Shown here in pieces: positions 4,120-23,693 of a stretch of DNA of 64,000 nt. The position numbers and the translations under genes are program-made. The stretch spans positions 744,001 through 808,000 of the forward strand of contig NZ_AUKG01000002.1 in assembly GCF_000424625.1 (NCBI RefSeq), given 5' to 3'. The number at the start of each line of letters is the position of its first letter. Positions within the stretch are counted from its first letter, which is position 1. The stretch comes from Conexibacter woesei Iso977N. GTDB lineage: Bacteria; Actinomycetota; Thermoleophilia; Solirubrobacterales; Solirubrobacteraceae. The notes under the pieces are model-generated. The model did no database searches, was not told the DNA's origin, and was given only the letters and a program-made list of their open reading frames with translations.

Positions 4120-4155
4120 GCGCCCGACGCTACGCCCGCCCCGCGCACCGCGCCA

Positions 4156-4644: not shown

Positions 4645-4666
4645 GGCTCCGGACCGTACGGGTGCA

Positions 4667-4687
4667 ATAGGGCGCTTTCGGTCCTAT
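4667..4687. promoter_or_regulatory. Possible operator in divergent promoter
   Basis: A short inverted repeat, ATAGG (4667-4671) and CCTAT (4683-4687), lies between the DUF1579-like gene and the divergent WYL regulator. The right arm touches the TAAGGT box (4687-4692) of the regulator. Its location suits autoregulation, but the arms are only 5 bp. Confidence 0.3.
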
Positions 4688-4700
4688 AAGGTCGTTGGTG

Positions 4701-5651: not shown

Positions 5652-6469
5652 CGGGCGCTACTGATCCTCAGCGCGTTGCTCGTCGCGCTCGCGCGGAACG
5701 CGTCGTTGCTCTCCACGACCTGGCACGCGATCCTGCGGCCCTTGTCACGCGGGCGGGCGCGGAACGTCCTCCCCGCGGCGTCCGGGATCAGCCTGCCGTC
5801 GGCGCGCCAGCGGATCGCGAGGTCCGCGTCCGGGTCGCCCCAGGAGCCCGTCCGGCACGTCAGCGTCCGGCCGACGCGCGGCGTGCCGACGAGCTTCGGG
5901 AAGCCCGCCGGGGCGATGAGGGCCGGGGAGATCTGCGCGCTCGCCACCGGAACCGTCGTCGTGTGCCCGGCGGGGTCGGTGACGCTCGCGGTGACGTCGT
6001 AGTCCCCGCCGTGGACGTAGACGTGCTGGGCGAGCGGCACGGAGACCGGGGTGCCCGCAGCCGTGATCGCGGGCAGCGGGACCGGCGCCTGCGTGCCGTC
6101 GCCCCAAGTGATGGTGATGGTGTACGACCCGGCCGGCCAGGCGACGTCGTCGGCGACGGTGATCGCCGGCGGGACGTAGGGACGCCCGGCGCCGACGGGG
6201 GTGCCAGCCGGCGGCGCCACGGTGACCGTCGGCGGGGCGGTGTCGACCGGCGGCAGCGGCGGCGGTGCCGGGAGCGGCCACGACGGCGGGACCGGCTGTC
6301 TCGGGCCCGCGACGCCGCCGTGGTGCGAGCACGCGCCCTGCCTGCCGCCGGCCTCGCTGGTCGTGCCGTCGGCGCAGGTGACCGTGTAGGCGGAGGCGCC
6401 GGAGGTGAGGAGCGCGAGCGCGGAGGTGGCGAGCGCTGCGGCGAGGCCGATGCGGTGTGCGTGCTTCAC
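5648..6469 (-). CDS. Secreted protein with DUF3761-like motif and PKD domain
   Basis: This 273-residue exported protein begins with a Lys/His-containing n-region and hydrophobic core ending ASA (about residues 1-27). A Cys-rich stretch CADGTTSEAGGRQGACSHHG (about 30-50) resembles DUF3761. A Pro-rich linker, a PKD-like beta-sandwich (WGDGTQ and YDVTASVTDPAGHT, about 95-170) and an Ig-like C-terminal domain common in Solirubrobacterales surface proteins follow. The GTG start at 6469 is preceded by a TATGTT box 6 bases upstream (complement of 6476-6481). The open frame continues further upstream, but only this start places the signal peptide at the N-terminus. The role is unknown, perhaps cell-surface adhesion. 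Confidence 0.65.
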   Translation of the reverse strand: MKHAHRIGLAAALATSALALLTSGASAYTVTCADGTTSEAGGRQGACSHHGGVAGPRQPVPPSWPLPAPPPLPPVDTAPPTVTVAPPAGTPVGAGRPYVPPAITVADDVAWPAGSYTITITWGDGTQAPVPLPAITAAGTPVSVPLAQHVYVHGGDYDVTASVTDPAGHTTTVPVASAQISPALIAPAGFPKLVGTPRVGRTLTCRTGSWGDPDADLAIRWRADGRLIPDAAGRTFRARPRDKGRRIACQVVESNDAFRASATSNALRISSAR

Positions 6470-6489
6470 CGGCGCAACATACCGGCCGT

Positions 6490-7956: not shown

Positions 7957-7965
7957 CGCCTGCGA

Positions 7966-7975
7966 ACCCTAGGCT
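7966..7975. promoter_or_regulatory. Overlapping divergent -10-like boxes
   Basis: TAGGCT (plus strand, 7970-7975) and TAGGGT (minus strand, 7966-7971) share the central TA. Each lies 9 bases from the start codon it would serve (7985 plus and 7956 minus). The arrangement recurs at 49956-49965. Both transcripts would be leaderless. Confidence 0.5.
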
Positions 7976-7984
7976 GCAAGCCCG

Positions 7985-8359
7985 ATGCATGACGTGTACC
8001 TCTACCTGCACCTGCTCGCGATGGCCTACTTCGTCGGCGGTCAGCTGTTCCTCGCGGCGTCGGTCGTGCCCGCGCTGCGCGGCAACCCCGACAGGGAGTC
8101 GGTCCGGGCGATCGCGCGGAACTTCGGGCAGGGCAGCCTCGGCGCGCTCGCGGTCCTGGTCGTCACCGGCAGCGCGATGGCGTCCGACCAGCACCTCTGG
8201 AAGAGCGGGACGCTGCACGCCAAGCTCGCGCTGGTCGTCGTCGCGATCCTGCTCGTCGTCGTGCACGCCAGGCAGCCCGGCAGGCACGTCTACGAGGGCC
8301 TGATCTTCTTGGTGTCCTTGGTCATCGTCGGCCTCGGCCTGCACCTGGCGACGATGTAG
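7985..8359 (+). CDS. Small four-helix membrane protein
   Basis: This 124-residue protein has four hydrophobic segments (about 5-25, 50-68, 80-97, 103-122) and a conserved-looking HLLAMAYFVGGQLF first helix. The layout recalls CopD/DUF-type four-helix membrane proteins that bind heme or copper, but no decisive ligand pattern is visible beyond a few histidines (2, 9, 70, 77, 89). It is expressed divergently from the acyl-CoA synthetase from a shared pair of TAnnnT boxes. Function unknown. Confidence 0.6.
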   Translation: MHDVYLYLHLLAMAYFVGGQLFLAASVVPALRGNPDRESVRAIARNFGQGSLGALAVLVVTGSAMASDQHLWKSGTLHAKLALVVVAILLVVVHARQPGRHVYEGLIFLVSLVIVGLGLHLATM

Positions 8360-8435
8360 CGGATGCCCCAGCGCGATCGTCTTCGACGCCAGCGAGGCCG
8401 CACGCGGTGCGGTCTGCGCGCTGCCGGGCGCGGTC

Positions 8436-9326
8436 GTGCTGCTGAGCGTCAACGTCTCCGCCGGGATGCTGTGCGCGCTCGGCGCGCTGCCGGCCGCGAT
8501 GCTCGGCGTCCCGCCGCAGCGCCGCGGCGTGCGCAGGCTGCCCGTCGTCGGCGCGGCGTTCGCGTTGGCCTACATCTTGGGCTCGATCCTCGGGCAGGTC
8601 CCCGCGCTGGCGGTCGCCGCGCTCGCCGCCGCCGCGGTCGGCGCGATCCGCGCCGCGGACGTCAGGCCCGCCGCCCGGATCCTGCCTGCGCTCGTCGTCC
8701 CCGCGTTCGCGCTCGGGATGAACGAGACGCTCCCGGACTCGCTCGGCCTCGCCGCCGCGTTCCTCGCCGGCTCGGTCTGGGCGGCCCTCGTCGCGGCGGC
8801 GTGGCCGCGGCGCCAACCCGTGCGCGCGGCGACCACAGCGACCACCGCACCGCCCGTCCCCGACAAGATGTACGCCTACCGCTTCGCCGCCGCCGGGGCG
8901 ATCGGCCTCGCGCTCGGCTACGTGCTCGACCTCGAGCACGTCGCGTGGGCCGCCGCCGCGGCGCTGTTCATCATGCGCCCGGATCCCGAGGCCGCGCGCA
9001 CCCGCGCGCTCGGCCGCGCGGTGGCGACGACGTGCGGCGTGGTCGCCGCCGGGCTGATCCTGCACCGCGGCCCGGCCGAGATCGCGCTGGCGTTCGTCGT
9101 GGTCGCCGCGATCGCCGCGATGATCGGCACGCGCGCCTCGCGCTGGTACGTGACCTCCGCGGGCTCCGGGCTCGTCGTGCTGCTGGCCTCCGGCGCGGCC
9201 TCGGCGGACGCGTTCCACACCGCCTTCGGCGAGCGCCTGCTGGAGACGCTCATCGGCGCCGCGCTCGCGGTCCTGCTGTCTAGAAGCGCCCGGCCGTCGA
9301 GGCCAGGTCGACCTCGATCGAGCTGA
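8436..9326 (+). CDS. FUSC-family-like membrane protein, start uncertain
   Basis: The 296 residues from GTG 8436 contain a repeated pattern of hydrophobic helices in two halves separated by a soluble linker (about residues 125-145), as in FUSC / aromatic-acid exporter proteins. YRFAAAGAIGLALGYVLDLEHVAWAA and a following VVVAAIAAMIG segment fit that family. In-frame codons with GC-rich third positions continue upstream to about 8365 without ATG, GTG or TTG, while an ATG at 8363 is one base out of frame. The true N-terminus is therefore probably longer, or a single-base indel has separated it. The 3' end overlaps the convergent giant coiled-coil gene by 47 bp. Confidence 0.55.
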   Translation: MLLSVNVSAGMLCALGALPAAMLGVPPQRRGVRRLPVVGAAFALAYILGSILGQVPALAVAALAAAAVGAIRAADVRPAARILPALVVPAFALGMNETLPDSLGLAAAFLAGSVWAALVAAAWPRRQPVRAATTATTAPPVPDKMYAYRFAAAGAIGLALGYVLDLEHVAWAAAAALFIMRPDPEAARTRALGRAVATTCGVVAAGLILHRGPAEIALAFVVVAAIAAMIGTRASRWYVTSAGSGLVVLLASGAASADAFHTAFGERLLETLIGAALAVLLSRSARPSRPGRPRSS

Positions 9327-12300
9327 GCCGCTCGGCCAGCCGGACCGCGACGCCGGTCAGCGTCGCCAGCAGATCGGCGTCGGCCGGGTCGCGCGACTCG
9401 CGCACCAGCTCCATGACGGCGAGCACGCGCCCGTCCGGATGCACGACCGGGACCGTCGCCAGCGTGCCGAGGTCGGCCCACGCGGCGCTGCGCGAGCGCG
9501 GGCAGGCGAGCATCTCCTCGGTGTCGGCCCAGTGGGCCTCGCCGGACCCCGCGGCGGCCGGGACCAGCCCGTCCTCCAGGTGCGCGCGCCAGGCCATGGT
9601 CTCCCACGCCTCCAGGCCCGACATGTAGGCCGTCCACGTCTCAGCGCACGCGAAGGTCCCGACGCCGCCCGCGTCCTGCCAGACCGCGCCGCCCTTCCAG
9701 CCGGTCGCGGTCGCCAGCGCCTGCAGGGCGGCACGGCCCGCGGCGCGCGGGGAAGACGCCTTGGCCAGCGCCCTGTCCAGCTCGTCGAGCGCCTCCGGGG
9801 TGAAGCCCGGCGGCGGGCCCTCGGGCTCGTCGGGCGCGGCGAACGCGAACGCCTTGGCCTGCGCGGCGGCGACCTCCAGCGGCGGCAGCGCCGGCCGGCC
9901 GGACGCCGTGTACGGCGACGTCATGATCGCCGGGACCTGCGCGACGACCTGCGCCGGCGGGACGTCGGCCAGGCGCCGCTCGGCCAGCTCGCGGGCCTCG
10001 CGCTCGGTGTCGAGCTTGGCCTGCAGCTCGTCGCGCGCGGCCAGGGCGAGATCCAGGTCTGCCCGAAGTTGCAGCACTTCGGTGTCGAGCGACTCCTCGG
10101 CCCGCGCCAGCGCCCCGCGGGCCTCCTCGCGCGACAGCTCGGCGAGGTCGGCGCGGCGCTCGGCGTCGTCGGCGCGCAGCTCGGCGACCTCGGCGCGGCG
10201 GTGCGCCTCGCTGGCGCCGGACTCGGCGGCCTCGGCGCGCGCGACCGCCTCGTCCAGGCGTGCGCCCGCGCCCGCGGTCGCCTCCTGGGCCGCCGCGGCG
10301 GCGGCGGTCTCCCGCTCGGCCCGTGCCGCGGCGGCGGCCGCGGTGGCCTCGGCGGCGCTCGCGGTCGCCTCCTCGGCGCGCAGCTCGGCGGCGAACGCGC
10401 GCTGCAGCGCCTCGTCGCGCGCGGCGCTGGCCTGCTCGGCGACGGCCTGCGCGGCGCCGAGATCGGCGACCGCCTGCATCCGCGCGGCCTCCGCGGCCTG
10501 GGCGTTCTCGACCGCGTGCGCGACCTGCGCGCCGGACGACTCGGCGGCGTTCGACGCCTGCGACAGCGCGGCCTCCGCGTCGCGGGCGCGCGCCTCGGCG
10601 TGGGCGACGCGCGTGTCGGCGTCCTCCAGCGCGGCCTCGGCGGCCTCGGCCCGGGCGCGCGTGGCCGCGACCGCCGACTCGGCGTTGAACAGCGCCTCGA
10701 CCTGCGCGTCGGATGAGGTGGCGGCCGCGTCGGCGCGGGCCCGCAGCTCGTCGAGCTCGGCGCCGACGACGTCCAGGCGTGCGACCAGCGCGTCGCGCTC
10801 GGCCGTGAGCGCAGAGAGATCCTCAACGGTCGCGGTCTGCGCGGCCAGCGCGGTCTCGGCGGCGCTCAGCCGGTCCGCGATCGCGTCGCGCTCGGCCTTC
10901 AGCTCCCACAGCGTCGCTTCGGTCTGCGTCGCGCTGACCGCGGCCGCCTCGCGCGCCTCGTCGCGTGCGGACTCCGCGGCGGCGAGCGCCTCGATCGCCT
11001 GCGTGCGCGTCTGCTCGGCCGCCTCGCGGCGGGCGACCGCCTCGTCGCGCTCGCGCGTCGCGGTCTCCAGCTGGGCGCGCAGCGACTCGACCTGCGCCAG
11101 CGCCTCGTCGCGCGCGGCCTCGGCGGCGCGCAGCGCCTCGCCGGCGTCGCCGCCCGCGGCCTCCGCGGCGTGGGCGCGGGCCAGCAGCTCCTCACGGACC
11201 GCCTCGGCGGCAGAGAGACGCGCGTCGGCCTCGGCGCGCGCAGCCTCGAGCTCCACGACCCGGGCCGAGGACTCCTCGGCGACCGTGCGGTGGTGGTCGA
11301 GCGCCTCGCGGGTCCGCGCATGCGCGTCCCGGACGCGGTCGCGCTCCAGCTCGGCGGTGCGCCGCGCCTCGCGCTCGCTCGCCAGCTCCTGCGTGACGGC
11401 CTCGCCGCCCGCGGCGCTGGCCAGCGCCTCCTCCTCCAGCGCGGCGGCGCGCTCGCGCTCGGCGGCGACGCGCGCGTCGGCCTCCTCGGCCAGCGCGGTG
11501 ACGCGCTCGCGCTCGGCGGCCAGCCGCGCGTCGGCGGCGGCGAGCGCCTCCTGGGCGCCGGACAGCTCGCGCGCCAGCGTCTCGGCGCGCTCGCGCGCGT
11601 CGGCCAGCGCGGCCTCGGCGGCGGCGGACTTCTCGCGCTCGGCGGCGAGCGCCTGGTTGATCCGCTCGCCGTCGGCGACGCCGGCCCGCGCGGCCTCCAG
11701 CTCGCCGACCAGCGCCTCGGTGCGCTCGTTGGCGGACTGCAGCGCGCGCTCCAGGTCCTCGCGGCGCGCGTCGGCCGCGGCGGTCGCCTCGGCGGCGGCG
11801 CGGGCGGCGTCCTGGGCGGCGGTCAGCTCGCCGCCGAGCCACTCGGCGCGGCCGCGCTCCTGCTCCAGCTCCTTGGCGGCGTTGTCGTAGCGCTCGCGCA
11901 GCGCGGTCAGCTCGGCGTCGAGCGACTCGCGCGAGGCGATCGTCTCGTCGAGCAGACGCTTGGCGTCGTCGTGCGCGCCGTGCAGCGACGCCAGCTCCTC
12001 GGCGAAGCCGTCGCGCCCGGCGACCGCCTCGTCGCGCGCACGAGCAAGCTCATGCACTTCGACCCGGAGCGCCTCAAGATCTTCGAGCGCTTCGGGATCC
12101 CCAGCGGGACGCGACTCCGCCTCGGCCAGGCGCGCGGTCGCGGCGTCGATCTCGGCCCGGAGCGCCTCGACGGCGGCCTCGGCCTCCTTCGCACGCGCCT
12201 TGACCTCCTTGCGGGAGACCCGGACCTCCTCCAGCTCGGCCTCCAGCTCTGCGCGGCGCGCGGTCGCCTCGGCCAGCTGGACCTCGACGCCGCCGCGGCC

Positions 12301-13317
12301 CTCGCGCAGGCCGGCCAGCTCGGCGTCGAGCTCGTCGCGGCGCGCGGCCGCGGCCTGCAGCTCGCCGCCGAGCGCCTCGCAGCGGCCCGACAGGTCGGCG
12401 ACCTGGCGCTGCAGGTCGGCGTCGCCGGTGCGCGCGTTCTGCAGCTCGCTCGACAGCAGCGCGGCGCGCTCCTCGGCGGCCTGCAGCTCGTGGGCGAGGT
12501 CGTCGTAGCGGGCGTTGGCCTCGGCCAAGCGCTCCTCGGCGGCCGCGGCGCGGGCGCGCGCGTCCTCCAGCTCGGCGTCCAGCGACGACGAGTGGTCGTT
12601 GACCGACGCCAGCTGCGCGGCCAGCTCGTCGACCCGCGCGGCGGCGTCGTCGCGCTCGACCGCGGCGCGCGCGGCCTCCTCGCGCAGCGCCTCCAGCTCG
12701 GCGCTCGCGCGCTCCAGCTGCTCGGTGGCCGAGCGCTGGGCGATCTCGGCCTCCAGGCGCGCCTCGCGCTCGACGGCCAGCGCCTCGCGCGCGGCGAACG
12801 CCTCGGCGTCGGCGGCGTTGCGCGCCTCGCGCTCGGCGATCAGCTCCTCCGCCGGGGCGGCCAGCCCGGCGGTGGCGACCTGGCCGACCGTCGCCTGCAG
12901 CCTCTGGCGCTGCTGCGCGCCCTGCTGGCGGTCGTCGCCGGGCGCCATGACGACGCAGATCGCCCACGGCTCCTCGCCGTCGTAGACCGGGAAGCGGCAG
13001 GCGCGCATCGCGCGGCGGCCGTCGCGGGCCAGGACGGTCTCACGCGCGTCCAGGTGGCCGTGCGCCTCCAGGACGAGCGCGTCCAGCTCGGCGACGCGGT
13101 GGGCCACGTCGGCCGGCTGCAGCGCGTTGTCGGTCTTGCCGACCAGCCGCGAGGCCTCGAGGCCGACGAGGTCGGCGAACGAGGCGTTGACCGCCACGTA
13201 GCGGCCCGCGGCGTCGCGCACGCAGGCGGGCAGCGTCGCTTCGAGCAGCGCGTCGGCAAGGGGCCCGAGGCGCTGCGAGGCGCCGGAGCCAGAGGTGGGG
13301 GCGGGTCCGTCGGTCAT
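9280..13317 (-). CDS. Giant PAS - coiled coil - GAF sensor-like protein
   Basis: This is a 1345-residue soluble protein. A PAS domain (about 20-128: LLEATLPACVRDAAGRYVAV, then LVGLEASRLVGKTD and an FPVYDGEEPWAICVVM strand) is followed by about 970 residues of almost unbroken Ala/Glu/Arg/Leu heptads (about 150-1120), a Pro-rich hinge, and a C-terminal GAF domain (about 1175-1335, with TVPVVHPDGRVLAVMELV). There is no kinase, GGDEF, EAL, phosphatase or methyl-accepting domain and no membrane segment. Known PAS and GAF domains bind small molecules or heme; a coil this long could span over 100 nm. A scaffold, polarity or cytoskeletal role is inference. GTG/ATG alternatives near the start are not resolved, and no TAnnnT box precedes it. 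Confidence 0.8.
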   Translation of the reverse strand: MTDGPAPTSGSGASQRLGPLADALLEATLPACVRDAAGRYVAVNASFADLVGLEASRLVGKTDNALQPADVAHRVAELDALVLEAHGHLDARETVLARDGRRAMRACRFPVYDGEEPWAICVVMAPGDDRQQGAQQRQRLQATVGQVATAGLAAPAEELIAEREARNAADAEAFAAREALAVEREARLEAEIAQRSATEQLERASAELEALREEAARAAVERDDAAARVDELAAQLASVNDHSSSLDAELEDARARAAAAEERLAEANARYDDLAHELQAAEERAALLSSELQNARTGDADLQRQVADLSGRCEALGGELQAAAARRDELDAELAGLREGRGGVEVQLAEATARRAELEAELEEVRVSRKEVKARAKEAEAAVEALRAEIDAATARLAEAESRPAGDPEALEDLEALRVEVHELARARDEAVAGRDGFAEELASLHGAHDDAKRLLDETIASRESLDAELTALRERYDNAAKELEQERGRAEWLGGELTAAQDAARAAAEATAAADARREDLERALQSANERTEALVGELEAARAGVADGERINQALAAEREKSAAAEAALADARERAETLARELSGAQEALAAADARLAAERERVTALAEEADARVAAERERAAALEEEALASAAGGEAVTQELASEREARRTAELERDRVRDAHARTREALDHHRTVAEESSARVVELEAARAEADARLSAAEAVREELLARAHAAEAAGGDAGEALRAAEAARDEALAQVESLRAQLETATRERDEAVARREAAEQTRTQAIEALAAAESARDEAREAAAVSATQTEATLWELKAERDAIADRLSAAETALAAQTATVEDLSALTAERDALVARLDVVGAELDELRARADAAATSSDAQVEALFNAESAVAATRARAEAAEAALEDADTRVAHAEARARDAEAALSQASNAAESSGAQVAHAVENAQAAEAARMQAVADLGAAQAVAEQASAARDEALQRAFAAELRAEEATASAAEATAAAAAARAERETAAAAAAQEATAGAGARLDEAVARAEAAESGASEAHRRAEVAELRADDAERRADLAELSREEARGALARAEESLDTEVLQLRADLDLALAARDELQAKLDTEREARELAERRLADVPPAQVVAQVPAIMTSPYTASGRPALPPLEVAAAQAKAFAFAAPDEPEGPPPGFTPEALDELDRALAKASSPRAAGRAALQALATATGWKGGAVWQDAGGVGTFACAETWTAYMSGLEAWETMAWRAHLEDGLVPAAAGSGEAHWADTEEMLACPRSRSAAWADLGTLATVPVVHPDGRVLAVMELVRESRDPADADLLATLTGVAVRLAERLSSIEVDLASTAGRF

Positions 13318-13444
13318 CCGTCCGGGACCTCATCGGCTCGTCATCGCAGTTCATCGGATTCCGGAGCGGGGGTCACGGACGAACGTTCGGCCCGCCACAG
13401 GTATCCTCGGGGGTCTTCCTGACCCGGATCCCTGGAGCGACCAC

Positions 13445-14659
13445 ATGGCCGTTGAAACCAGCGTCTTCAATGACACGACCGACGAGCAGAAGGCCATCAT
13501 CGAGATGGTCCGGCAGTTCGTCGACGAGCAGATCATCCCGAACGCCGAGCACTACGACGGTGCCGACGAGTACCCGGCGCCGATCGTCGAGCAGCTCAAG
13601 GAGCTCGGCCTGTTCGGCATCACCATCCCCGAGGAGTACGGCGGGCTCGGCCTCGACCTGACGACCTACGTCATGGTCGTCGAGGAGCTGTCCCGCGGCT
13701 GGATCTCGATCTCGGGCGTGATCAACACGCACTTCATCGGCTCGTACCTGCTGCTGAAGTACGGCAGCGACGAGCAGAAGGACAAGTACCTCCCGCGCAT
13801 GGCGACGGGTGAGATCCGCGCCGCGTTCTCGCTGAGCGAGCCTGAGCTGGGCTCCGACGTGCAGGCGATCAAGACCAACGCGCGCAAGATCGACGACGGC
13901 AAGTACGAGATCAACGGCCAGAAGATGTGGGTGACCAACGGCTTGATGTCGTCCTTGGTCTTCCTGCTGGTCAAGACCGATCCCGATGCGAACCCGAAGC
14001 ACAAGGGCTTCACCTGCTTCATCACGGAGAAGGAGGCGGGCGTCAGCGAGAACACGGGCGAGTACGCCGGCCTGACCGTGCCCCCGAAGATCAAGAAGAT
14101 GGGGTACAAGGGCGTCGAGTCCACCGAGTTGGTCTACGACGGCTACAAGTGCCCGGCCGAGAACATCCTCGGCGGCGAGGACGCGGGCCTGAACGCCGGC
14201 TTCGCGCAGATGATGGACGCTTTGGAGGTGGGTCGCGCGAACGTGGCGGCCCGCGGTGTCGGCCTGGCGCAGCGCGCGCTGGAGCTGGCGCTGAAGTACT
14301 CGCAGGAGCGCAAGACGTTCGGCAAGCCGATCGCCCAGCACCAGGCGATCCAGTTCAAGCTCGCCGACATGGCGACCCAGCTGGACGCGGCCCGCCTGCT
14401 GACGCGCCGCGCGGCGATGATGAAGGACGCGGGCATCCGCAGCGACATGGAGGCCGGCATGGCCAAGCTGTTCGCATCGGAGACCGCGCGCTTCTGCGCC
14501 GAGGAGTGCCTGCGCATCCACGGCGGCTACGGCTACTCCAAGGAGTACGAGATCGAGCGGATCTACCGCGACGCGCCGCTGCTGCTGATCGGCGAGGGCA
14601 CGTCGGAGATCCAGAAGATGGTCATCGGCAAGAAGCTCTTGCAGCGCCATAGGATCTAG
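13445..14659 (+). CDS. Acyl-CoA dehydrogenase
   Basis: This 404-residue flavoprotein has the full acyl-CoA dehydrogenase fold: an alpha-helical N-domain (EEYGGLGLDLTTYVMVVEEL), the FAD/substrate strand AFSLSEPELGSDVQAIKT, and a helical C-domain with QERKTFGKPIAQHQAIQFKLAD. The catalytic base is the Glu in IGEGTSEIQ (Glu384). It introduces an alpha-beta double bond into an acyl-CoA and passes electrons to ETF. The ATG at 13445 is preceded by a GGAG-type ribosome site, and a TATCCT box near 13400 suggests a leadered transcript, unlike many neighbours. Substrate is unknown; it is shorter than methylsuccinyl-CoA dehydrogenases (about 550 residues), so that role is less likely. Confidence 0.9.
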   Translation: MAVETSVFNDTTDEQKAIIEMVRQFVDEQIIPNAEHYDGADEYPAPIVEQLKELGLFGITIPEEYGGLGLDLTTYVMVVEELSRGWISISGVINTHFIGSYLLLKYGSDEQKDKYLPRMATGEIRAAFSLSEPELGSDVQAIKTNARKIDDGKYEINGQKMWVTNGLMSSLVFLLVKTDPDANPKHKGFTCFITEKEAGVSENTGEYAGLTVPPKIKKMGYKGVESTELVYDGYKCPAENILGGEDAGLNAGFAQMMDALEVGRANVAARGVGLAQRALELALKYSQERKTFGKPIAQHQAIQFKLADMATQLDAARLLTRRAAMMKDAGIRSDMEAGMAKLFASETARFCAEECLRIHGGYGYSKEYEIERIYRDAPLLLIGEGTSEIQKMVIGKKLLQRHRI

Positions 14660-14720
14660 TCCAACACTCGCCCAGGGGGCGAGGTTGGATTGCGGGTTTC
14701 GCCCAGGGGGCGAAACCCGC
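14660..14720. terminator. Tandem hairpins between convergent genes
   Basis: Hairpin 1 spans 14660-14689 (arms TCCAAC/GTTGGA around CTCGCCC-AGG-GGGCGAG). Hairpin 2 spans 14692-14720 with a perfect 13-bp stem (GCGGGTTTCGCCC) and an AGG loop. Both share the core CGCCC-AGG-GGGCG. No U-tract follows; they sit exactly between the ends of two convergent genes and probably terminate both. Confidence 0.65.
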
Positions 14721-14722
14721 GG

Positions 14723-17700
14723 CTACCACTGGGACACCGGTACCTCTCCGAGGTACCGCGTGTCCCTCGTGAGGATCACCGCGTGCTGGCCGAAGCCGCC
14801 TTCGGCCTTCACCGCGGCGAGCATCTTCTGGAACATCTCGTTCGGCGTCACGCCCGGCGGTGCGACGAACTTCGCGATCCGCTGCAGGAACGGGATCCCG
14901 ACCTCGTCGGGCATGAACGGCACGCCGAACTTCGGCAGCAGGAACCCGGCGTGGGCCGCGTCGGCGTCGTCCATGACGAGCGTCGCGCCGTGCTCGGCGA
15001 GGTCGGTGACGAGCCCGGACGCGCGCGCCTTGACGTTGCGGTCGACGTAGCGGCTCATCGCGAACGAGCGCTCCGACGCGTCGAGCGACGCCAGGATCGG
15101 CTTGCCCGCGCCGTCGCGGCCGACGACCTTCATCACGGCGACCGCGTCGGCGTCGACGCCCTGGGCCAGCGCCTTGGACGAGTTGACCACCGTCTTGGTG
15201 TTGACGACCCTGCCGCCTCGCAGCGTGTCCTTGACGACGATCTCGTACCTCTTGACGCGGATCAGGTAGGCGTCGGCGTACCTGCCGGGCACCTTGACCA
15301 GCTCGAACTCCGCGTTGACGAAGCGCTGCAGCCCGCCCGGCCACGGCCTGTCGTCGAGGGCGACGGTGCCCTCCCTGCCGATGACCCTCTGCAGCTTGGC
15401 GGTCTTGGACCCCAACTTGGGGTCGTTCCACTCGTCCACGGCCTTGACCGCGTTCTCATACTCCTTGATCGCGGCGGCCTGGCGCTCCTTGGACAGGTTC
15501 CTGAAGCCCGGGATCTCCTGCGGCCTGACCTTCGGCTTCCAGTACACGGCCTCGCCGAGCGCGTCGGCGGGCATGCCGGCGTCGACCATCGCGGCCTTGC
15601 CGGTCTTCTGGCCGGTCAGCTCGAGCTTGGCGACCGCGCCGGGCTTGCGCAGCTCGGTCGAGGGCTTGAGCACCTCGGCCAGCTCGATCGGCCTGCCGAA
15701 CGTCCTGGCGTAGTCGTCCTCGACGCCCTTGAGGATCTGGGCCTTGGCGTCGAGGGTCACCTCGGGCACACCGCCGACGTTGGGCAACCTGTACACGTTG
15801 CCGTGGTCGGAGGACTGCACGAGCGTCGCGCCGTCCAGGTCCTTCATCGCGGCCTCGCCGTCCTGCAGCAGCCCCGCGGCCTCCTCGCCCGACAGGCCGA
15901 CGCCGAGCGCGTTCTTGGTGCCCTTGACGGCCCGGACGCCCTTGGCGAGCCTGCCGGACTCGTCGATGACCTCGGTCGCCTTGGCCATGTTGATCAGCGC
16001 GGCGCCCTTCCTGGCGAGCTGGACGACCCTGCCGCCCGAGGTCACCACCTTGGTCGCGGCGCCGCCGATCAGCGTGTCGGCGACCGCCTCGCCTGCGGTG
16101 GTCGTGTCGGCCGCGTCGAGCTTGGCCGACTCGCGCATGAACTTGATCGGCTGGTCGTCGGCCAACTGCGCGACCCTGTCGCGGGCTTCGGCGCGCTTGA
16201 CGAACGGGACGGTCATGTCGTCGACGAGGTCGTCGGCGCCCTTGTCGACCTGGTCGAACGCGGTGATCAGCGAGGCGCCGTCGTTGAGCAGGTTGCTGAC
16301 CTCGTTCCTGGTCCAGTTGGCGTAGGAGGTCGTGTCCTGCACGACGCCGTCGGAGAAGGCCAGGACCATCGCCTCGGCCTCCTCGCGCTGGTCCTGCGAG
16401 GCGCTGTTCATGATGTAGTTGGCCGCGAGCGCGCTCTCGCCCCAGGCCGTCCGGAGCTGCGTCCTGGCGCCGTCGCCGAGGTCGCTCCACCTCTTGACGT
16501 ACCTCGCCACGCCCTTGCCGAGCTCGGCCTTGAAGGCCCTGTTGTACTCGTCGTTGAGCTCCTCGGCGGTGTAGCCGCCGAAGCCCTTGTTGGGCAGCTG
16601 CGCGGCGGTTGCGTTGGGGGAGCGGCCGAGCAGCAGGGCGCGCGCGACGTCGAGCTGGTCGACGACGTTCTTGCTCGCGGTGCCGAACCAGCGCTTGCGC
16701 TCGGCGGGGCTGAGCACCCTGCGCAGCGCCGCCTGGAGCTTGAGGCCGGTCCTGTCCCAGCCCTGGTAGAGCTTGCGCGCCATGCCGAGCATCATCGAGT
16801 CGACGCCGTGCAGGCGGGCGTACTGGGCCAGCGCGGCGTTGAGGCGGCCGGCCTGCGTGACGGTGATCTTCAGCGAGCCCTTGGCCTCCTGCGGCGTGCC
16901 GCCGGCGGTCCTGCCGGTGACCTTGACGATCGCCGCGGCGACGCCGTCGGTGCCCGCGGTCAGGCGGTAGTCGAAGGTCCTGGTCTCGCCCGGCGCGAGG
17001 CTGGTGGGCGGGGCGCCGCCGGGGGCGGAGAGGGTCCCGATGCGGGCGATCGAGCGCGCGTCGATCGTCAGCGGCGCGCCGCCGCCCGCGTAGTTGAGGT
17101 CCTTGATCGTCTCGGTCGAGCTGGTGTTCTTGAGCGTGACGTGGACGTCGAAGGCCTCCTGCTCGGTCAGGCCGCCGCTGTCGAGCGCGCGGCCGTCGGG
17201 CGTGGCGGCGGCGATGTCGACGTCGAGCGTGTCGCTGCCCGCGCCGAGCCGGTAGACGGGCGCGTCGGTCTGCCCGCCGCCCGCGGTCACGCGGCCGATG
17301 ATGTAGGCGCCGTCGGGCGAGATGTCGGTGGCCGAGACCAGCGGGCCGGTGGGGTTCTGCGCGAGCGTGTTGAGGTCGATCGCGGTGCCGTCGGGGTGCC
17401 AGAGCGTGGCGCGGAAGCCGCTCGGGCCGCTCGACTCGCCGACGACCGTGCCGTCGTCGGCGATCGCCTCGCCGGTGGCGCCGGTGGAGCCCGCCAGCGG
17501 CTGCAGGACTGTGACCGCGCCGGCGCCGTCGACCTTGGCCGGCAGGTTGTTGACGGCCGGCGTCGACATCCGGCCCAGGACCGTGCCCGACGGGGTGATC
17601 GCGTGCATGACGGGGTAGAAGCCCTGCGGCAGGTCGGTCACGACGCCGGACGAGGAGATCGTCCGGGCGTTGGCGGCGCACCCGAGCACGACCGTGCCGG

Positions 17701-18307
17701 CGTCGCTGATCGCCATCGGCCCGGTCGCGCCCGACTGCGACCCGGACGGGCAGCCGGCGGGCAACGGGGTCACGGTCGGCGACCCGGCCGCGGCGGTGAC
17801 GGCCCTGCCCTCGGAGGTGCCGAGGATGGTGCCGGCGTTGTTGAGCGTCAGCGGCACCGTGCCCTCGGTCCACGTGCAGTTGTCGGTCTCGCCCGAGTGC
17901 GGCAGGCCGCCGAGCTGGGTCATGACCCCGCTGCCCGACCAGACCAGCCCGCGGAAGATCGTCGGCTGGACGTACGCGCAGTCCCTGACGGAGTCGTAGA
18001 CGCTGCCGCCGACGACCCGGCCCTGGTCGTTGATGTCGTAGGCGACCGACGTGATGGCGTCGTCCGGCGAGCCGGGCAACTGCGTGTCGTCGGACCCGTT
18101 CCAGGTGAACGGCACGATCGTGTTGTTGGGGTTGTTGATGTCCGTGGAGCCCCGCGCCACGACGATCCCGGCGCTGTTGACCCCTTGGACGTCGACGTAG
18201 CTGTAGGGGCGGCCGAACTCGCGGTAGTCGGCCTGGGCCGCCGCCGGGAGGGACGCGGCGAGCGTGGCGAGCAGCAGGGCCAGGGCGAGGAGGGCGGCGC
18301 GCGGCAT
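14723..18307 (-). CDS. Giant secreted multidomain protein with HAF-like repeats
   Basis: The protein has 1194 residues with a signal peptide (1-26, ending AQA). Residues about 40-340 hold at least seven repeats of the form I-N-x-x-G-x-V-V-G (for example INDQGRVVGGS, LNNAGTILGTS, IADDGTVVGES), like HAF-type beta-propeller repeats. A beta-sandwich (about 355-485) follows, then a long Lys/Asp/Ala-rich helical region (about 490-830) and a mixed C-terminal domain (about 890-1194, ending in ILTRDTRYLGEVPVSQW) that I do not recognise. The N-terminal display repeats and variable C-terminal domain recall polymorphic secreted effectors, but no toxin motif is visible. Arginine is often encoded by AGG here. 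A TACGCT box lies 7 bases before the ATG (complement of 18315-18320). Confidence 0.7.
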   Translation of the reverse strand: MPRAALLALALLLATLAASLPAAAQADYREFGRPYSYVDVQGVNSAGIVVARGSTDINNPNNTIVPFTWNGSDDTQLPGSPDDAITSVAYDINDQGRVVGGSVYDSVRDCAYVQPTIFRGLVWSGSGVMTQLGGLPHSGETDNCTWTEGTVPLTLNNAGTILGTSEGRAVTAAAGSPTVTPLPAGCPSGSQSGATGPMAISDAGTVVLGCAANARTISSSGVVTDLPQGFYPVMHAITPSGTVLGRMSTPAVNNLPAKVDGAGAVTVLQPLAGSTGATGEAIADDGTVVGESSGPSGFRATLWHPDGTAIDLNTLAQNPTGPLVSATDISPDGAYIIGRVTAGGGQTDAPVYRLGAGSDTLDVDIAAATPDGRALDSGGLTEQEAFDVHVTLKNTSSTETIKDLNYAGGGAPLTIDARSIARIGTLSAPGGAPPTSLAPGETRTFDYRLTAGTDGVAAAIVKVTGRTAGGTPQEAKGSLKITVTQAGRLNAALAQYARLHGVDSMMLGMARKLYQGWDRTGLKLQAALRRVLSPAERKRWFGTASKNVVDQLDVARALLLGRSPNATAAQLPNKGFGGYTAEELNDEYNRAFKAELGKGVARYVKRWSDLGDGARTQLRTAWGESALAANYIMNSASQDQREEAEAMVLAFSDGVVQDTTSYANWTRNEVSNLLNDGASLITAFDQVDKGADDLVDDMTVPFVKRAEARDRVAQLADDQPIKFMRESAKLDAADTTTAGEAVADTLIGGAATKVVTSGGRVVQLARKGAALINMAKATEVIDESGRLAKGVRAVKGTKNALGVGLSGEEAAGLLQDGEAAMKDLDGATLVQSSDHGNVYRLPNVGGVPEVTLDAKAQILKGVEDDYARTFGRPIELAEVLKPSTELRKPGAVAKLELTGQKTGKAAMVDAGMPADALGEAVYWKPKVRPQEIPGFRNLSKERQAAAIKEYENAVKAVDEWNDPKLGSKTAKLQRVIGREGTVALDDRPWPGGLQRFVNAEFELVKVPGRYADAYLIRVKRYEIVVKDTLRGGRVVNTKTVVNSSKALAQGVDADAVAVMKVVGRDGAGKPILASLDASERSFAMSRYVDRNVKARASGLVTDLAEHGATLVMDDADAAHAGFLLPKFGVPFMPDEVGIPFLQRIAKFVAPPGVTPNEMFQKMLAAVKAEGGFGQHAVILTRDTRYLGEVPVSQW

Positions 18308-18852: not shown

Positions 18853-19872
18853 TCAGTCGGCGAGCGCCGGGACCTGCTGGGTGATGCAGTGGGGGCCGCC
18901 GCCGCCGAAGGCATGGATGACGCCGGGGACGCCGATGACCTCCTTCGAGGGGCCGTAGGCGCGGCCGATCGCGTCGAGGGCCTCGGCGTCGAGGTCGGGC
19001 TGGCCCGCGACGGGGACGATCACGAACTTCTCGCCGATGTAGAAGTTCATGTAGGAGGCGACGATCTCCTCGCCCTCGACCTCCGCGTAGGCGAGCGGGT
19101 CGAAATCGATGACCTCCAGCCCCGCGGCCACGGCGATCTCGCGGTTGCGGGCCATGTTGTCGTGGTTGGGGTTGTCGGCGGCCGCGCGCTGCAGCAGGAC
19201 GGTCCCGGGCTTGGTGAACGCGGCGATCAGGTCGACGTGGCCGTCGGTGTCCTTGTCCTCGACCAGGCCCTTCTCCAACCACACCACCTTGGTCACGCCG
19301 AGGTAGTCCTTGAGGTGCTGCTCGATCTCGCCGCGGTCCATCGACGGGTTGCGGTTCGGGTTCAGCAGGCACTCCTCGGTGGTGATCAGGAAACCGGTCC
19401 CGTCGACCCCGATCGACCCGCCCTCCAGGATCAGCGGCGCGCGCACGACGTCGCTGCCGACGTGCTCGCTCAGGAATCGCCCGATCGCCTGGTCGTTCTC
19501 ATAGCCCTCGAACTTGTCGCCCCACGAGTTGAACCCGAAGTGCACGCCGACGCGGCGCGACGGCTCCTCGATGTGGTCGACGACGAAGATCGGCCCGGAG
19601 TCGCGCAGCCACGAGTCGTCGACCGGCCGCAGGACGACCTCGACGTTGCCGTCCAGCGCGGCGCGCGCCTCGGCGTGGTCGGCGGCGTCGCGGACGACCA
19701 TCGTGACCGGCTCGAACGCGGCGATCGCGTTCGCCACGCCCGCGGACTCCGCCTTCGCGGCGCCGAGCTGGCCGCCCCACAGCTCGCGGCGGCAGGGCCA
19801 CGCCATCAGCGTGCGCTCGTGGCGCGTCCACTCGGGCGGCATCGTCAGACCTTCGGCGGCGGGCGTCGTCAT
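18853..19872 (-). CDS. aguA: Agmatine deiminase (peptidyl-arginine-deiminase family)
   Basis: The 339-residue enzyme begins MTTPAAEGLTMPPEW and continues with RHERTLMAWPCRRELWGG, typical of the agmatine deiminase family. Family residues are visible: RPVDDSWLRDSGPIFVVD (acidic pair and guanidine site), LEGGSIGVDG, DTDGHVDLIAAF (catalytic His) and GGGGPHCITQQ with the nucleophile Cys329. It converts agmatine to N-carbamoylputrescine and ammonia. The frame is open upstream, but ATG 19872 gives the conserved N-terminus. It diverges from the B12-binding sensor with 34 bp between starts. No N-carbamoylputrescine amidase is seen nearby. Confidence 0.85.
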   Translation of the reverse strand: MTTPAAEGLTMPPEWTRHERTLMAWPCRRELWGGQLGAAKAESAGVANAIAAFEPVTMVVRDAADHAEARAALDGNVEVVLRPVDDSWLRDSGPIFVVDHIEEPSRRVGVHFGFNSWGDKFEGYENDQAIGRFLSEHVGSDVVRAPLILEGGSIGVDGTGFLITTEECLLNPNRNPSMDRGEIEQHLKDYLGVTKVVWLEKGLVEDKDTDGHVDLIAAFTKPGTVLLQRAAADNPNHDNMARNREIAVAAGLEVIDFDPLAYAEVEGEEIVASYMNFYIGEKFVIVPVAGQPDLDAEALDAIGRAYGPSKEVIGVPGVIHAFGGGGPHCITQQVPALAD

Positions 19873-19906: not shown

Positions 19907-20734
19907 ATGGGGACAGAAGTCCGCCCGGTCAGGTTCCAAAGCGGCTTGTTGGAGGCCTTGGAGACGCGGCTGGCCCGCGAGGGCGGCGAGCTGTCGGACT
20001 TCGTGAACATGGCGGTCGATCGCGCGCTGCACGGCGATGCGGGCGAGCGGCGGCTGCGCGCGGTCCCCGAGCCGATCGCGCAGGAGGAGCTGCACGGCGC
20101 GTGCGTCGCCTACCGCCGCGCGCTGTTGGACCGCGACCCGGTGCGGGCGCGGGCGGTCGTCGACGACCTCGTCGCGCGCGGCGTCAGGATGATCGACCTG
20201 TATGAGTCGGTCCTGGCCCCGGCGATGGGCGAGATCGGCGAGCTCTGGGCGCTGGAGCAGGTGACGGTCGCCGACGAGCACTACGCGACCGAGGAGACCG
20301 CGCAGATCCTCAACACGCTGGCGCCGGAGCGGCGCGTCGCGCCGACGCGCGGGCGCCTGGCGGTCGTCGGCGGGTCGCCGGACGAGCTGCACTCCATCGG
20401 CCCGCGGATGGTCGCCGACCTGCTGGAGCGCGCGGGGTGGGAGGTGATCGCTCTGGGCGCCGGCGCGCCCGCCGGCGACCTCGCGAGGCTCGTGAGCGCC
20501 GAGTGCCCGGACGTCGTCGCGCTCTCGACCGCGACCGTCGGGCGGCTGCCGGGCGCCGAGGAGGCGATCGGCCTCCTGCGCCAGGTGCGGCCGCGCCCGC
20601 TGCTGGCCGTCGGCGGCGGCCTCTACCGCGGGCCGGCGGTCGACCTCGCACGCGCCTGGGGCGCGGACGTCGTCACGTCCGACCTGAAGGACTTCCTGGC
20701 GCAGCTGCACGAGCGCTTCCCGCCTGTGGGGTGA
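19907..20734 (+). CDS. CarH-like cobalamin-binding sensor without MerR domain
   Basis: This 275-residue protein has a short N-terminal helical segment resembling a ribbon-helix-helix (RPVRFQSGLLEALETRL...SDFVNMAVDRAL, about 5-42). A four-helix cap domain (about 55-140) carries the W-x9-EH photosensor motif (Trp114, Glu124-His125), and a Rossmann-like B12-binding domain spans about 145-270. The cobalamin motif is E160-L-H162-S-I-G165, a variant of DxHxxG, followed by STATVG and GGGLY. Light-sensing CarH proteins use these modules behind a MerR DNA-binding domain, which is absent here. A TAGGGT box (19894-19899) ends 7 bases before the ATG. It probably regulates a neighbour in response to B12 or light (inference). 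Confidence 0.75.
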   Translation: MGTEVRPVRFQSGLLEALETRLAREGGELSDFVNMAVDRALHGDAGERRLRAVPEPIAQEELHGACVAYRRALLDRDPVRARAVVDDLVARGVRMIDLYESVLAPAMGEIGELWALEQVTVADEHYATEETAQILNTLAPERRVAPTRGRLAVVGGSPDELHSIGPRMVADLLERAGWEVIALGAGAPAGDLARLVSAECPDVVALSTATVGRLPGAEEAIGLLRQVRPRPLLAVGGGLYRGPAVDLARAWGADVVTSDLKDFLAQLHERFPPVG

Positions 20735-20806
20735 TCCGCGGCGGCGCGCCGCGCGCGGGCGGGTGTGCCTTCGCGGCGGGGCGTGGTCGGCGTAGGGTTC
20801 TGCGGG

Positions 20807-21472
20807 ATGCGTTTGTTGCCTCAGGAGCAGGACCGGCTGCTGCTGTTCCTCGCCGCGGAGCTGGCGCGCAAGCGGCAGGCGCGGGGGTTGCGGCTCAACC
20901 AGGCGGAGGCCACGGCGGTCATCGCCGACGGCATCTGCGAGCTGGCCCGGGACGGCCTGCGCTACGCGGACGTCGTCGAGAAGGCCTACAGCTTGCTCGG
21001 CGAGGACGACGTGCTCGACGGCGTCCGGCCGCTGGTCCCGCGGATCGAGGTCGAGGCGGTGTTCCGGGACGGGCGTCATCTCATCGTGGTCGAGGACCCG
21101 CTGGGCCCGCCGCCGGGGGACGAGCCCGAGGGCGAGCCGGACGCGCCGTGGCTCGACACGGCGACCGCGCGCGTTGCGGTGACCAACGAGAGCGCCGTCC
21201 TGATCGGCGTCACCAGCCACATGCACTTCTTCGAGACCAACCCCATGTTGAACTTCGACCGCGCCGCGGCGTGGGGGCTGCGCCTGGCGGTCCCGGCGCG
21301 GACCAAGATCTTCTTCGCCCCCGGCGAGACGCGCGAGGTCGCGCTGGTCCCGATCGGCGGCGCGCGCGTCGTGCGCGGGCACGGCGAGCTGGTCGACGGG
21401 GCGCTGGACGATGCTGACGTGCGCGAGGCCGCGTTGAGCGCCGCGCGCGAGAAGGGGTACCGCGGTGTCTGA
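20807..21472 (+). CDS. Fused urease gamma-beta subunit homologue
   Basis: Residues about 1-100 match urease gamma (LPQEQDRLLLFLAAELARKR, LNQAEATAVIADGI, GEDDVLDGVRPLVP). Residues about 125-221 match urease beta (VTNESAVLIGVTSHMHFFETN, FDRAAAWGLRLAVPA, FFAPGETREVALVPIGG). Gamma-beta fusions occur in some bacteria. The ATG at 20807 is preceded by a TAGGGT box at 20793-20798, 8 bases upstream. The stop overlaps the GTG of the alpha-subunit homologue by 8 bp, so the two are translationally coupled. No nickel-insertion genes (ureDEFG) occur in the window. Confidence 0.85.
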   Translation: MRLLPQEQDRLLLFLAAELARKRQARGLRLNQAEATAVIADGICELARDGLRYADVVEKAYSLLGEDDVLDGVRPLVPRIEVEAVFRDGRHLIVVEDPLGPPPGDEPEGEPDAPWLDTATARVAVTNESAVLIGVTSHMHFFETNPMLNFDRAAAWGLRLAVPARTKIFFAPGETREVALVPIGGARVVRGHGELVDGALDDADVREAALSAAREKGYRGV

Positions 21473-23099
21473 CGCACAGCCCGTCCGGCTCGGCGACACG
21501 TCGCTGGAGCTCGTCGCCGAGCGCGACGACGTCCACGGCCCGGACCAGCTGGTCCCGGGGTTCGGCAACACGATGCGCGACGGGCTCGGGGTCCGGGCGG
21601 AACGCGGCGGCGTGGAGATCGCGATCACCGGCGGGCTGATCGTCGACCCGATCCTGGGCGTGCGCTACGCGTCGCTGGGCATCACCGACGGGCGGATCGT
21701 CTCGATCGGCCGCGCCGGCAACCCGGACACGATGGACGGGATCGACGTGGTCCTGGACGTCGGCACCGCCGTCCTCGACGCGACCGGCATGATCGTCACG
21801 CCGGGCGGGATCGACACGCACGTGCACTGGCTGTCGCCGCAGGTGACCGACGCGCTGCTGGCCGGCGGGATCACGACGATGGTCTCGCAGGACTACGGGC
21901 CGATCTGGAACCTGGGCACGAACCCGGAGGCCGGGCTGCAGGCGACGTGGGCCGCGCTCGAGGACGCGCCGATCAACGCAGGGCTGTTCGTGCGCGGGTC
22001 GTCGTCGCGGATGGAGCGGGTGGAGGACGGGCTGCGCGCGGGCGGCGCGGCGCTGAAGATCCACGAGGACGTCAGCGCCGGGCCGCGGCAGATCGACACG
22101 GCGCTGCGGGTGTGCGACGCGCACGACGTCCAGCTGGCGATCCACACCGACGGGCTCAACGAGGTGCTCGACGTCGAGGGCACGTTCCGGGCGTTCGCCG
22201 GGCGGTCGGTGCACTGCTTCCACATCGAGGGCGCCGGCGGCGGGCACGCGCCGGACCTGCTGAAGCTCGCGGGCCGCGAGCGGATCCTGACCTCTTCGAC
22301 GTCCCCAACGGTCCCGTTCGGCGTCGACACGGCGGCCGAGCACGAGGCGATGGTCGCCGCCGTGCATGTCCTACAACCTGGTGTCGTGCACGGCGACCGC
22401 GCCGCGGCGCGCGCCCGTGTGCGGCCGGCGACGATGGCCGCCGAGGGCGTCCTGCACGACCTCGGGATCGTGCACATGCTGTCGAGCGACTCCCAGGGCA
22501 TGGGGCGCGCGGGCGAGGTGTTCCGGCGCGCGATCCAGAACGCGGACGTGATGAAGCGGGCGCGGGGCTCTGCCGGCTACGGCGGTCTGGGGGACAACGA
22601 GCGCGTGCTGCGCCACGTCGCGAAGGTGACGATCAACCCGGCGATCACGCATGGGCTGTCGCACGACGTCGGCGCGCTGACCGAGGGCCGCGTGGCCGAC
22701 TGCGTGTTCTGGCTGCCGCAGAACTTCGGGATCCGGCCGGAGCTGGTCGTGAAGATGGGGATCGCGGCGTGGGGCGCGTCCGGCGACGCCGACGCGACGA
22801 CCGCGCTCTGCGAGCCGGTGGTCGTCCAGCGCCAGGTCGGCGCGCACGGGCGTGCCGCGGCGCGGCTGTCGCTGGCGTTCACGAGCGCCGCGGCGCAGGA
22901 CACCGAGCTGCCGACCGAGCGGCGCCGCTCGATCGTCCGCGGCTGCCGCGACGTCACCGCGGCCGACATGGTGCGCAACGACGTCCGGGCCGACGTGGAC
23001 GTCGCACCGGACGGGTCGTGGGTGTCGGTCGACGGCGAGCGGATCGGCATCGAGCCGATCGAAGAGGTCTCGCTGAGCTGGCGCTACCTCCTCGGGTAG
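21465..23099 (+). CDS. Urease alpha-subunit homologue with altered active-site flap
   Basis: This 544-residue amidohydrolase is about 25 residues shorter than ordinary UreC. The metal ligands are kept: His119/His121 (HVHW), the carbamylatable Lys198 with His200 (LKIHED), the His of HTDGLNE, the His of FHIEGAGGGHAPD, and Asp342 (SSDSQGMGR). The flap that normally reads MVCHHL is MVAAVHVL, so the catalytic-flap Cys is Val300 while the neighbouring His301 remains. HEDWG is HEDVS, and HTDTLNE is HTDGLNE. The binuclear metal site is therefore likely functional, but substrate closure and specificity may differ from urea. GTG start, coupled to the gamma-beta gene. Neighbouring agmatine deiminase makes a ureido compound, so a ureido-amine substrate is a possible alternative (inference). 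Confidence 0.8.
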   Translation: MSDAQPVRLGDTSLELVAERDDVHGPDQLVPGFGNTMRDGLGVRAERGGVEIAITGGLIVDPILGVRYASLGITDGRIVSIGRAGNPDTMDGIDVVLDVGTAVLDATGMIVTPGGIDTHVHWLSPQVTDALLAGGITTMVSQDYGPIWNLGTNPEAGLQATWAALEDAPINAGLFVRGSSSRMERVEDGLRAGGAALKIHEDVSAGPRQIDTALRVCDAHDVQLAIHTDGLNEVLDVEGTFRAFAGRSVHCFHIEGAGGGHAPDLLKLAGRERILTSSTSPTVPFGVDTAAEHEAMVAAVHVLQPGVVHGDRAAARARVRPATMAAEGVLHDLGIVHMLSSDSQGMGRAGEVFRRAIQNADVMKRARGSAGYGGLGDNERVLRHVAKVTINPAITHGLSHDVGALTEGRVADCVFWLPQNFGIRPELVVKMGIAAWGASGDADATTALCEPVVVQRQVGAHGRAAARLSLAFTSAAAQDTELPTERRRSIVRGCRDVTAADMVRNDVRADVDVAPDGSWVSVDGERIGIEPIEEVSLSWRYLLG

Positions 23100-23126: not shown

Positions 23127-23693
23127 ATGGCCGTTGCCATGCCGCCGATCGTCCATGACCCGATCCCGTTCGGGCCGCAGCGGGTTGCTGAGACGCGGGC
23201 GTATGCCGTCCGGCATTACGGGTTGCAGCGGGCGCGGTTGGTCGCGCCGAGGGTGATCGTGGAGCACATGACGGAGAACTCGTCGTTCCGGGCGACGTTC
23301 AACACGTTCGCGCCGGATGTCGCGGATCCGGAGCTGCACGAGCTGCCGGCGACGTGCTCGCACTTCGTGATCGATCAGAGCGGGACGATCCACCAGCTGG
23401 TGTCGCTGAAGTGGATCTGCCGGCACACGGTGGGCCTCAACTACACGGCGATCGGGATCGAGCACGTGGGCTTCTCCGAGGACGGCGTGCTCGGCAACCG
23501 GAGGATGCTGCGCGCGTCGCTGCGGCTGACGCGGTGGCTGCAGAGCAGGTTCCACATCGCCACCAGGAACGTGATCGGGCACAACGAGTCGCTCAACAGT
23601 CCGTATCACCACGAGGACGTCGCGCGGCTGCGCACCCAGACGCACGGCGACTGGCCGCATCGCTTCATGGTGCGCTACCGCGCGGACCTGTAG
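23127..23693 (+). CDS. N-acetylmuramoyl-L-alanine amidase (amidase_2 fold)
   Basis: The 188-residue protein shows the PGRP/amidase_2 zinc-hydrolase pattern: VIVEHMTENSSF (first ligand His), SHFVIDQSGTIHQLVSLKW, HTVGLNYTAIGIEHVG, and NVIGHNESLNSPYHHED (second His and Asp region). It should cleave the lactyl-L-alanine amide of peptidoglycan. No clear signal peptide is present, so it may act in muropeptide recycling or use another export route. A TAGACT box (23113-23118) ends 8 bases before the ATG. The TAG stop is also the first half of the TAGCGT box of the next gene. Confidence 0.8.
   Translation: MAVAMPPIVHDPIPFGPQRVAETRAYAVRHYGLQRARLVAPRVIVEHMTENSSFRATFNTFAPDVADPELHELPATCSHFVIDQSGTIHQLVSLKWICRHTVGLNYTAIGIEHVGFSEDGVLGNRRMLRASLRLTRWLQSRFHIATRNVIGHNESLNSPYHHEDVARLRTQTHGDWPHRFMVRYRADL

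Follow-up and report, generated by a model that had tools for sequence, protein, structure and literature searches.

Does a protein that keeps the fold and metal ligands of urease still hydrolyze urea when its substrate pocket is changed and the urease accessory genes are missing? This question is raised by a gene pair of Conexibacter woesei Iso977N, which lies in a stretch of 64,000 nucleotides (contig NZ_AUKG01000002.1, positions 744,001 to 808,000; referred to as the window, whose numbering is used below) and encodes a fused urease gamma-beta protein (UreAB) and a UreC-like catalytic subunit. We propose that UreAB-UreC is an accessory-independent, urease-fold hydrolase of an N-substituted urea, likeliest N-carbamoylputrescine, and assign a probability of about 45% to this reading, in which substrate and metal are both putative.

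Gene assignment

UreAB is encoded on the forward strand at 20807-21472 (ATG start, open reading frame opening at 20765) and comprises a gamma (PF00547, 114.2 bits) and a beta domain (PF00699, 89.9 bits); with 255.6 bits it exceeds the cut-off of 243 for the bifunctional gamma/beta model NF009671. Its 3' end overlaps by 8 bp with the UreC-like frame (21465-23099, forward strand, GTG start, 544 residues), which matches Urease_alpha (PF00449) with 69 bits and Amidohydro_1 (PF01979) with 148 bits, the gamma, beta and alpha urease domains each being above cut-off in the window proteins. The UreC-like protein stays below the cut-off of the urease equivalog TIGR01792 (518.6 bits, cut-off 680) and passes the looser subfamily model NF009686 (586.6 bits, cut-off 354). 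It was filed as a noncanonical (DGLNE-type) member of the urease family and not as a urease.

Active site and predicted fold

Residues were compared in an alignment with S. pasteurii urease, the metal-ligand and catalytic roles being those ascribed to them in urease. All metal-ligand positions are filled: H119 and H121 (21819-21827), K198, H227, H253 and D342 of the window protein align with S. pasteurii H137, H139, K220, H249, H275 and D363. H200, D202, the flap histidine H301 and R320 are conserved as well, with the carbamylatable lysine and the catalytic histidine and aspartate located in the segment K198-I-H200-E-D202-V203-S204 (22056-22076). Around these residues, the canonical W225, T252, C322 and H324 are changed to V, G, V and V, respectively: V203-S204 stands for W225-G226, such that HEDW reads HEDV, G230 stands for T252 in the motif HTDGLNE (22152-22154), and V300-H301-V302 for C322-H323-H324 in the flap (22362-22370). 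In addition, A366 is replaced by G345 and the proline preceding SST by T276, and the substrate-side loop after the first metal-binding strand is shortened by four residues and recast as QDYGPIWNLG (residues 142-151, 21888-21917), the compared segment having 38 residues in the window protein versus 42 in two canonical sequences and 39 in two others. All of these segments are read from the forward strand.

A previous interpretation of this DNA, made by a model from the letters alone (the sequence-only reading), had described the complete metal site with Lys198, the replacement of the flap cysteine by Val300 and the change of HEDWG to HEDVS; the alignment confirms all three and adds the changes at T252, the proline and the loop. 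It had also suggested that the protein, though related to urease, may act on something else, such as a ureido compound. The comparative evidence given below favours this, while the substrate itself is putative and the flap cysteine is a weak basis for it. Loss of this cysteine was rejected as sufficient proof of a new substrate, as C319A/S variants of the Klebsiella enzyme exist as solved proteins in the PDB; these variants retain part of the urease activity.

An AlphaFold model of the UreC-like subunit has a confident urease fold (mean pLDDT 86.8) and superimposes on urease alpha chains with a TM-score of 0.95 (1ie7_C) and a Z-score of about 54, the next group of structures following at about 25. 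Among the matches listed, those after the ureases are amidohydrolase-type enzymes, namely dihydroorotase, hydantoinase, allantoinase and a deacylase.

Phylogeny and fixed substitutions

UreC was found at an E-value of 1e-40 or better in 11 of 149 genomes of the class, and is of the noncanonical type in five of these (the window genome, G035, G015, G120 and G129), with G035 carrying both types. A scan of named genomes yielded at least 80 UreC loci; among the matches listed, L029-L044, L046 and the Thermomicrobia loci L053, L084 and L102 are noncanonical by motif and the rest, including L045, canonical, and the closest named relative is a Conexibacter metagenome-assembled genome (MAG) with 84% UreC identity. 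The noncanonical set spans Solirubrobacterales, Streptomyces, Kribbella and Thermomicrobia, and the observation is more general than the sequence-only reading had shown. In a sample of 396 Actinomycetota genomes, the motif pattern gave 27 matches, 23 of which are UreC; L109, L118, L119 and L135 were dropped as not being UreC.

For tree calculation, we picked 60 sequences, 33 of the noncanonical and 27 of the canonical type, out of the larger number that these loci offered. A branch with 100/100 support sets the flap-changed type apart from all 27 canonical ureases, and each of the four subgroups, A to D, has support as well; as the tree is unrooted, we claim the split and not its direction. 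The metal ligands and, in S. pasteurii numbering, H222, D224 and H323 are invariant in 60/60 sequences. Position 252 is Gly in 33/33 noncanonical and Thr in 27/27 canonical sequences. H324 and the proline before SST are both gone from 33/33 noncanonical sequences (canonical position 324: His in 25/27, Asn in 2/27), C322 from 32/33, and A366 is Gly in 33/33 noncanonical but also in 3/27 canonical sequences. An invariant metal site combined with a pocket changed across the noncanonical sequences points to constraint on the metal site together with an altered pocket.

Loss of the tryptophan in HEDW was discarded as a hallmark of the group: subgroup C, the third subgroup and mostly from one family, has DGLNE and a VHE/VHG flap and keeps HEDW, with Trp in 6/7 and Tyr in 1/7 sequences. 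In the same subgroup, Arg339, otherwise invariant in the sampled sequences, is His in 4/7 (several proteins in the region of L120, L124, L125, L126, L128, L129 and L131).

Accessory genes

UreD and UreF were not found anywhere in the window genome (5.70 Mb, 96.55% complete), all 42 UreF candidates of which were scored, nor was a UreG-like protein, apart from weak cobW/UreG-type matches; UreE was not part of the search. The lack of accessory genes that had been noticed in the window therefore extends to the whole genome for these three proteins. Three cobW-family matches were rejected as UreG on account of their P-loop sequence and weak similarity, and would, by the P-loops, be one SRP-type and two MeaB-type GTPases.

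For the 396 genomes, PF00449 matches of at least 50 bits (83 loci; weaker ones dropped) and UreF matches of at least 25 bits (5 dropped) were counted, with at most nine UreF candidates scored per genome. UreF lies within 5 kb of 0/23 noncanonical versus 54/60 other UreC loci, and occurs in 0/13 genomes with only the noncanonical type versus 45/48 with only the other type. One canonical-type UreC (G320:C1:448576) belongs to a genome in which UreF was not found. In separate locus sets of 35 noncanonical loci, which include near-duplicates and short contigs, and 67 canonical loci, UreG is near 0/35 and 59/67, respectively. UreF and UreD of one Streptomyces proved too diverged as BLAST control queries, recovering 1/67 and 9/67 canonical loci, and were replaced by UreG and the UreF profile. 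Where noncanonical carriers do possess UreF (4/20 genomes: G035, Kitasatospora, Streptomyces and Kribbella), it is on contigs other than that of the noncanonical locus; in the phylum sample, 9/22 carrier genomes have another UreC in addition, 8 of these with UreF. As UreD, UreF and UreG are missing, the noncanonical enzyme probably acquires its metal by a route other than GTP-driven nickel delivery.

Linkage to deiminase and polyamine transport genes

Upstream of UreAB, on the reverse strand at 18853-19872 (open reading frame opening at 20010), an agmatine-deiminase-family protein is encoded (PAD_porph, PF04371, 326.7 bits), in which the Cys/His/Asp motifs DDSWLRDSGP, EGGS, GHVD and HC were all found. 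The sequence-only reading had placed it adjacent to the urease-like genes; it is indeed near, but a gene for a B12-binding protein (19907-20734) lies between it and UreAB.

Across the 396 genomes, a TIGR03380-type deiminase is located within 5 kb of 13/23 noncanonical and 0/60 other UreC loci (Fisher's exact test, 2.2e-9). These loci are not independent, since 9/13 come from one family, f28; within f28, however, linkage is seen at 9/9 noncanonical versus 0/12 other loci, and the contrast is therefore not merely taxonomic. In the locus sets, a deiminase is near 9/35 noncanonical and 0/67 canonical loci, and PotA-type transporter genes near 8/35 and 0/67, respectively. The linkage is retained although gene order differs between families. 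With all genes on one strand, the deiminase follows UreAB-UreC in Streptomyces, Kitasatospora and G015 and precedes it in L136; it is divergent in Kribbella (L043) and L143 as well as in the window, there with the intervening B12-binding gene. In the related Conexibacter genome, UreC (L029) and deiminase (L148) are each located at the end of a separate contig; as L148 has two of the window's neighbours, this is consistent with the same order as in the window.

In Kribbella L043, Pot-like transporter genes overlap one another as well as the deiminase gene; their matches to PotA (356 bits), PotD (113 bits) and PotC (196 bits) all stay below the curated cut-offs. The divergent UreAB-UreC and an aminotransferase fragment come next. 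The frame of the latter (11571-12251) breaks off once about 200 of the 460 residues in the profile are covered, owing to a frameshift or an assembly error or because it is a pseudogene. The PotA-type protein of L044, a subgroup B MAG, exceeds the TIGR01187 cut-off (368.3 versus 355.6 bits). There (3232-9198 and 11633-18008), and likewise in the subgroup B MAGs L042 and L046, the urease-like genes are situated inside a catabolic island, flanked by a B12-dependent diol-dehydratase set, an Amidohydro_3 protein, an AAT-family acyltransferase, a DAO oxidoreductase and a Pot-type transporter.

Proposed reaction and alternative substrates

The distinct branch, the fixed pocket changes, the absence of accessory genes and the linkage to deiminase and polyamine-type transporter genes together favour a substrate other than urea. 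In the proposed reaction, the neighbouring deiminase would turn agmatine into N-carbamoylputrescine, which UreAB-UreC would split into putrescine, CO2 and ammonia. As in urease, a pair of metals, possibly Zn, Fe or Mn, would be bridged by carbamylated Lys198 and activate water, while H200 and D202 would hold and polarize the ureido group and the flap H301 would protonate the leaving amine. The alkylamine arm may be accommodated by the recast loop, by glycine in place of Thr252 and Ala366, and by the absence of the flap cysteine and His324. At somewhat less than even odds, we extend this to the family: a widespread branch of it would not be urease but a nickel-chaperone-free hydrolase of substituted ureas, the deiminase-linked members of which (window, Streptomyces, Kribbella) would constitute a further nonhomologous N-carbamoylputrescine amidohydrolase. 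A precedent is AguY, another such nonhomologous enzyme, discovered through its adjacency to aguA (PMC12283126).

Several observations weigh against N-carbamoylputrescine. No TIGR03380 match was found in 13/20 noncanonical genomes; agmatine deiminase is thus not an obligate partner, and the notion that it always accompanies noncanonical UreC was dropped (found in 7/20 genomes). The neighbouring deiminases that are present score below the equivalog cut-off of 381.8 bits (window 268.2, L043 263.1, L136 301.9, L146 353.9), such that their own substrate may differ from agmatine. The relatives L019, L020, L032 and L033 share common, unrelated neighbours, two of which are CoaE and a transglycosylase in L020. 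Residue 302 varies by subgroup (V/L, D/G, E/G or R), and hence no single residue can be read as an amine-binding site. Furthermore, AguB-like CN hydrolases, scoring as high as 265.6 bits in Kitasatospora and reaching 115.6 bits in the window genome, could catalyze the reaction themselves. On the supporting side, AguB above its strict curated cut-off is found in 0/20 noncanonical genomes, but since only 2/14 control genomes pass either, its presence or absence is a weak test.

Part of this evidence fits an enzyme acting on another ureido compound, supplied by a deiminase that uses some other guanidino compound, for instance a guanidino acid (giving a ureido acid) or a natural-product guanidine. 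Some carriers have no detected deiminase at all, and the linked deiminases, below cut-off as they are, fall into two motif types, EGGS...LLNPNRN and NEGGGIHVDGEG. G483, a genome of family f28, has five TIGR03380-type matches, of which four share a contig and lie close to a single UreC copy. As the polyamine-type transporters near 8/35 loci point to a cationic amine, we regard this alternative as doubtful. G483 contains two noncanonical UreC copies, L146 (C19:610000-629999) and L147 (C9:180000-198999). The deiminases that accompany the two copies differ in motif type, and one copy has three additional deiminase-family genes nearby.

Relation to known ureases and amidohydrolases

In the titles, abstract openings and cited passages covered by a literature search, neither the changed pocket nor the deiminase link is described. 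AguB, an enzyme of the nitrilase type, and AguY resemble UreAB-UreC in their position beside aguA and in the proposed reaction, whereas the proteins are unrelated to it. AguY is an amidase (PMC12283126). With the nickel urease (UreABC and UreDEFG), the window proteins share the subunits, the fold, the metal ligands, the carbamylatable lysine and the flap histidine; they differ in lacking a nearby UreF, in the changes at W225, T252, C322, H324 and A366, and in their place outside the canonical branch.

The corresponding genes of S. coelicolor would be SCO5525-5527; these locus tags appear in the literature, where one paper assigns SCO5526 to a different gene. The accessory-free Streptomyces cluster is already known, as a urea-utilising one: in S. 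coelicolor and S. avermitilis the cluster consists of ure(AB)C alone (PMC2492869), SCO5525-5526, with fused UreAB and UreC, is termed urea-utilising, and SCO5527 is listed with the homologues of enzymes on the route through arginine decarboxylase (PMC3293853). Streptomyces L040 has the order UreAB-UreC-deiminase. The cited parts of PMC5403932 and PMC9397018 contain no reference to this locus. From L040 and the phylum sample, SCO5526 would be expected to belong to the noncanonical type.

These reports bear on the possibility that UreAB-UreC is a genuine urease able to mature in the absence of accessory proteins, the deiminase linkage reflecting general nitrogen scavenging. The iron-containing UreA2B2 of Helicobacter mustelae is active without accessory proteins (PMC6737895), and ure(AB)C is counted with the functional urease cluster types (PMC5489568). 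The fold is close to urease, including UreA2B2 (3qga, Z-score 52.0), and the metal ligands are all kept; the likeness to UreA2B2 is one of fold and accessory-gene absence. UreA2B2 is not known to be linked to agmatine. The fixed changes around the presumed substrate pocket in 33/33 noncanonical sequences, the fact that urea hydrolysis is already covered in carriers with a second UreC, and the fact that urea is not a product of agmatine deiminase render a true urease unlikely. A decaying or non-catalytic relic, which the missing accessory genes and a start about 13 residues later than in canonical UreC (by the S. pasteurii alignment) might suggest, is highly improbable given the open frame, the metal ligands, H222, D224 and H323 retained over 33 diverse sequences, and the confident fold.

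Neighbouring genes

The B12-binding gene (19907-20734, forward strand; PF02607, PF02310) is divergent to the deiminase gene, with a gap of 34 bp. The protein has both B12 domains, but no DNA-binding domain is found by Pfam; its first 45 residues resemble a ribbon-helix-helix segment, without confirmation by Pfam. The protein may regulate the urease-like locus in response to B12 or light. Directly 3' of UreC, an Amidase_2 gene of the N-acetylmuramoyl-alanine amidase family (PF01510, 65.2 bits) is encoded on the forward strand at 23127-23693.

Implications for the urease family

If UreAB-UreC does hydrolyze a substituted urea, many genomes, including those of Streptomyces, would be wrongly credited with a second urease, and the step from agmatine to putrescine would have been invented independently once more, with urease chemistry turned to polyamine metabolism. 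The natural pocket variants of this actinobacterial branch form a test set for the urea specificity of urease. To our knowledge, urease is regarded as strictly urea-specific and, the Helicobacter iron enzyme aside, as strictly dependent on nickel chaperones; a common actinobacterial branch would then break both of these rules.
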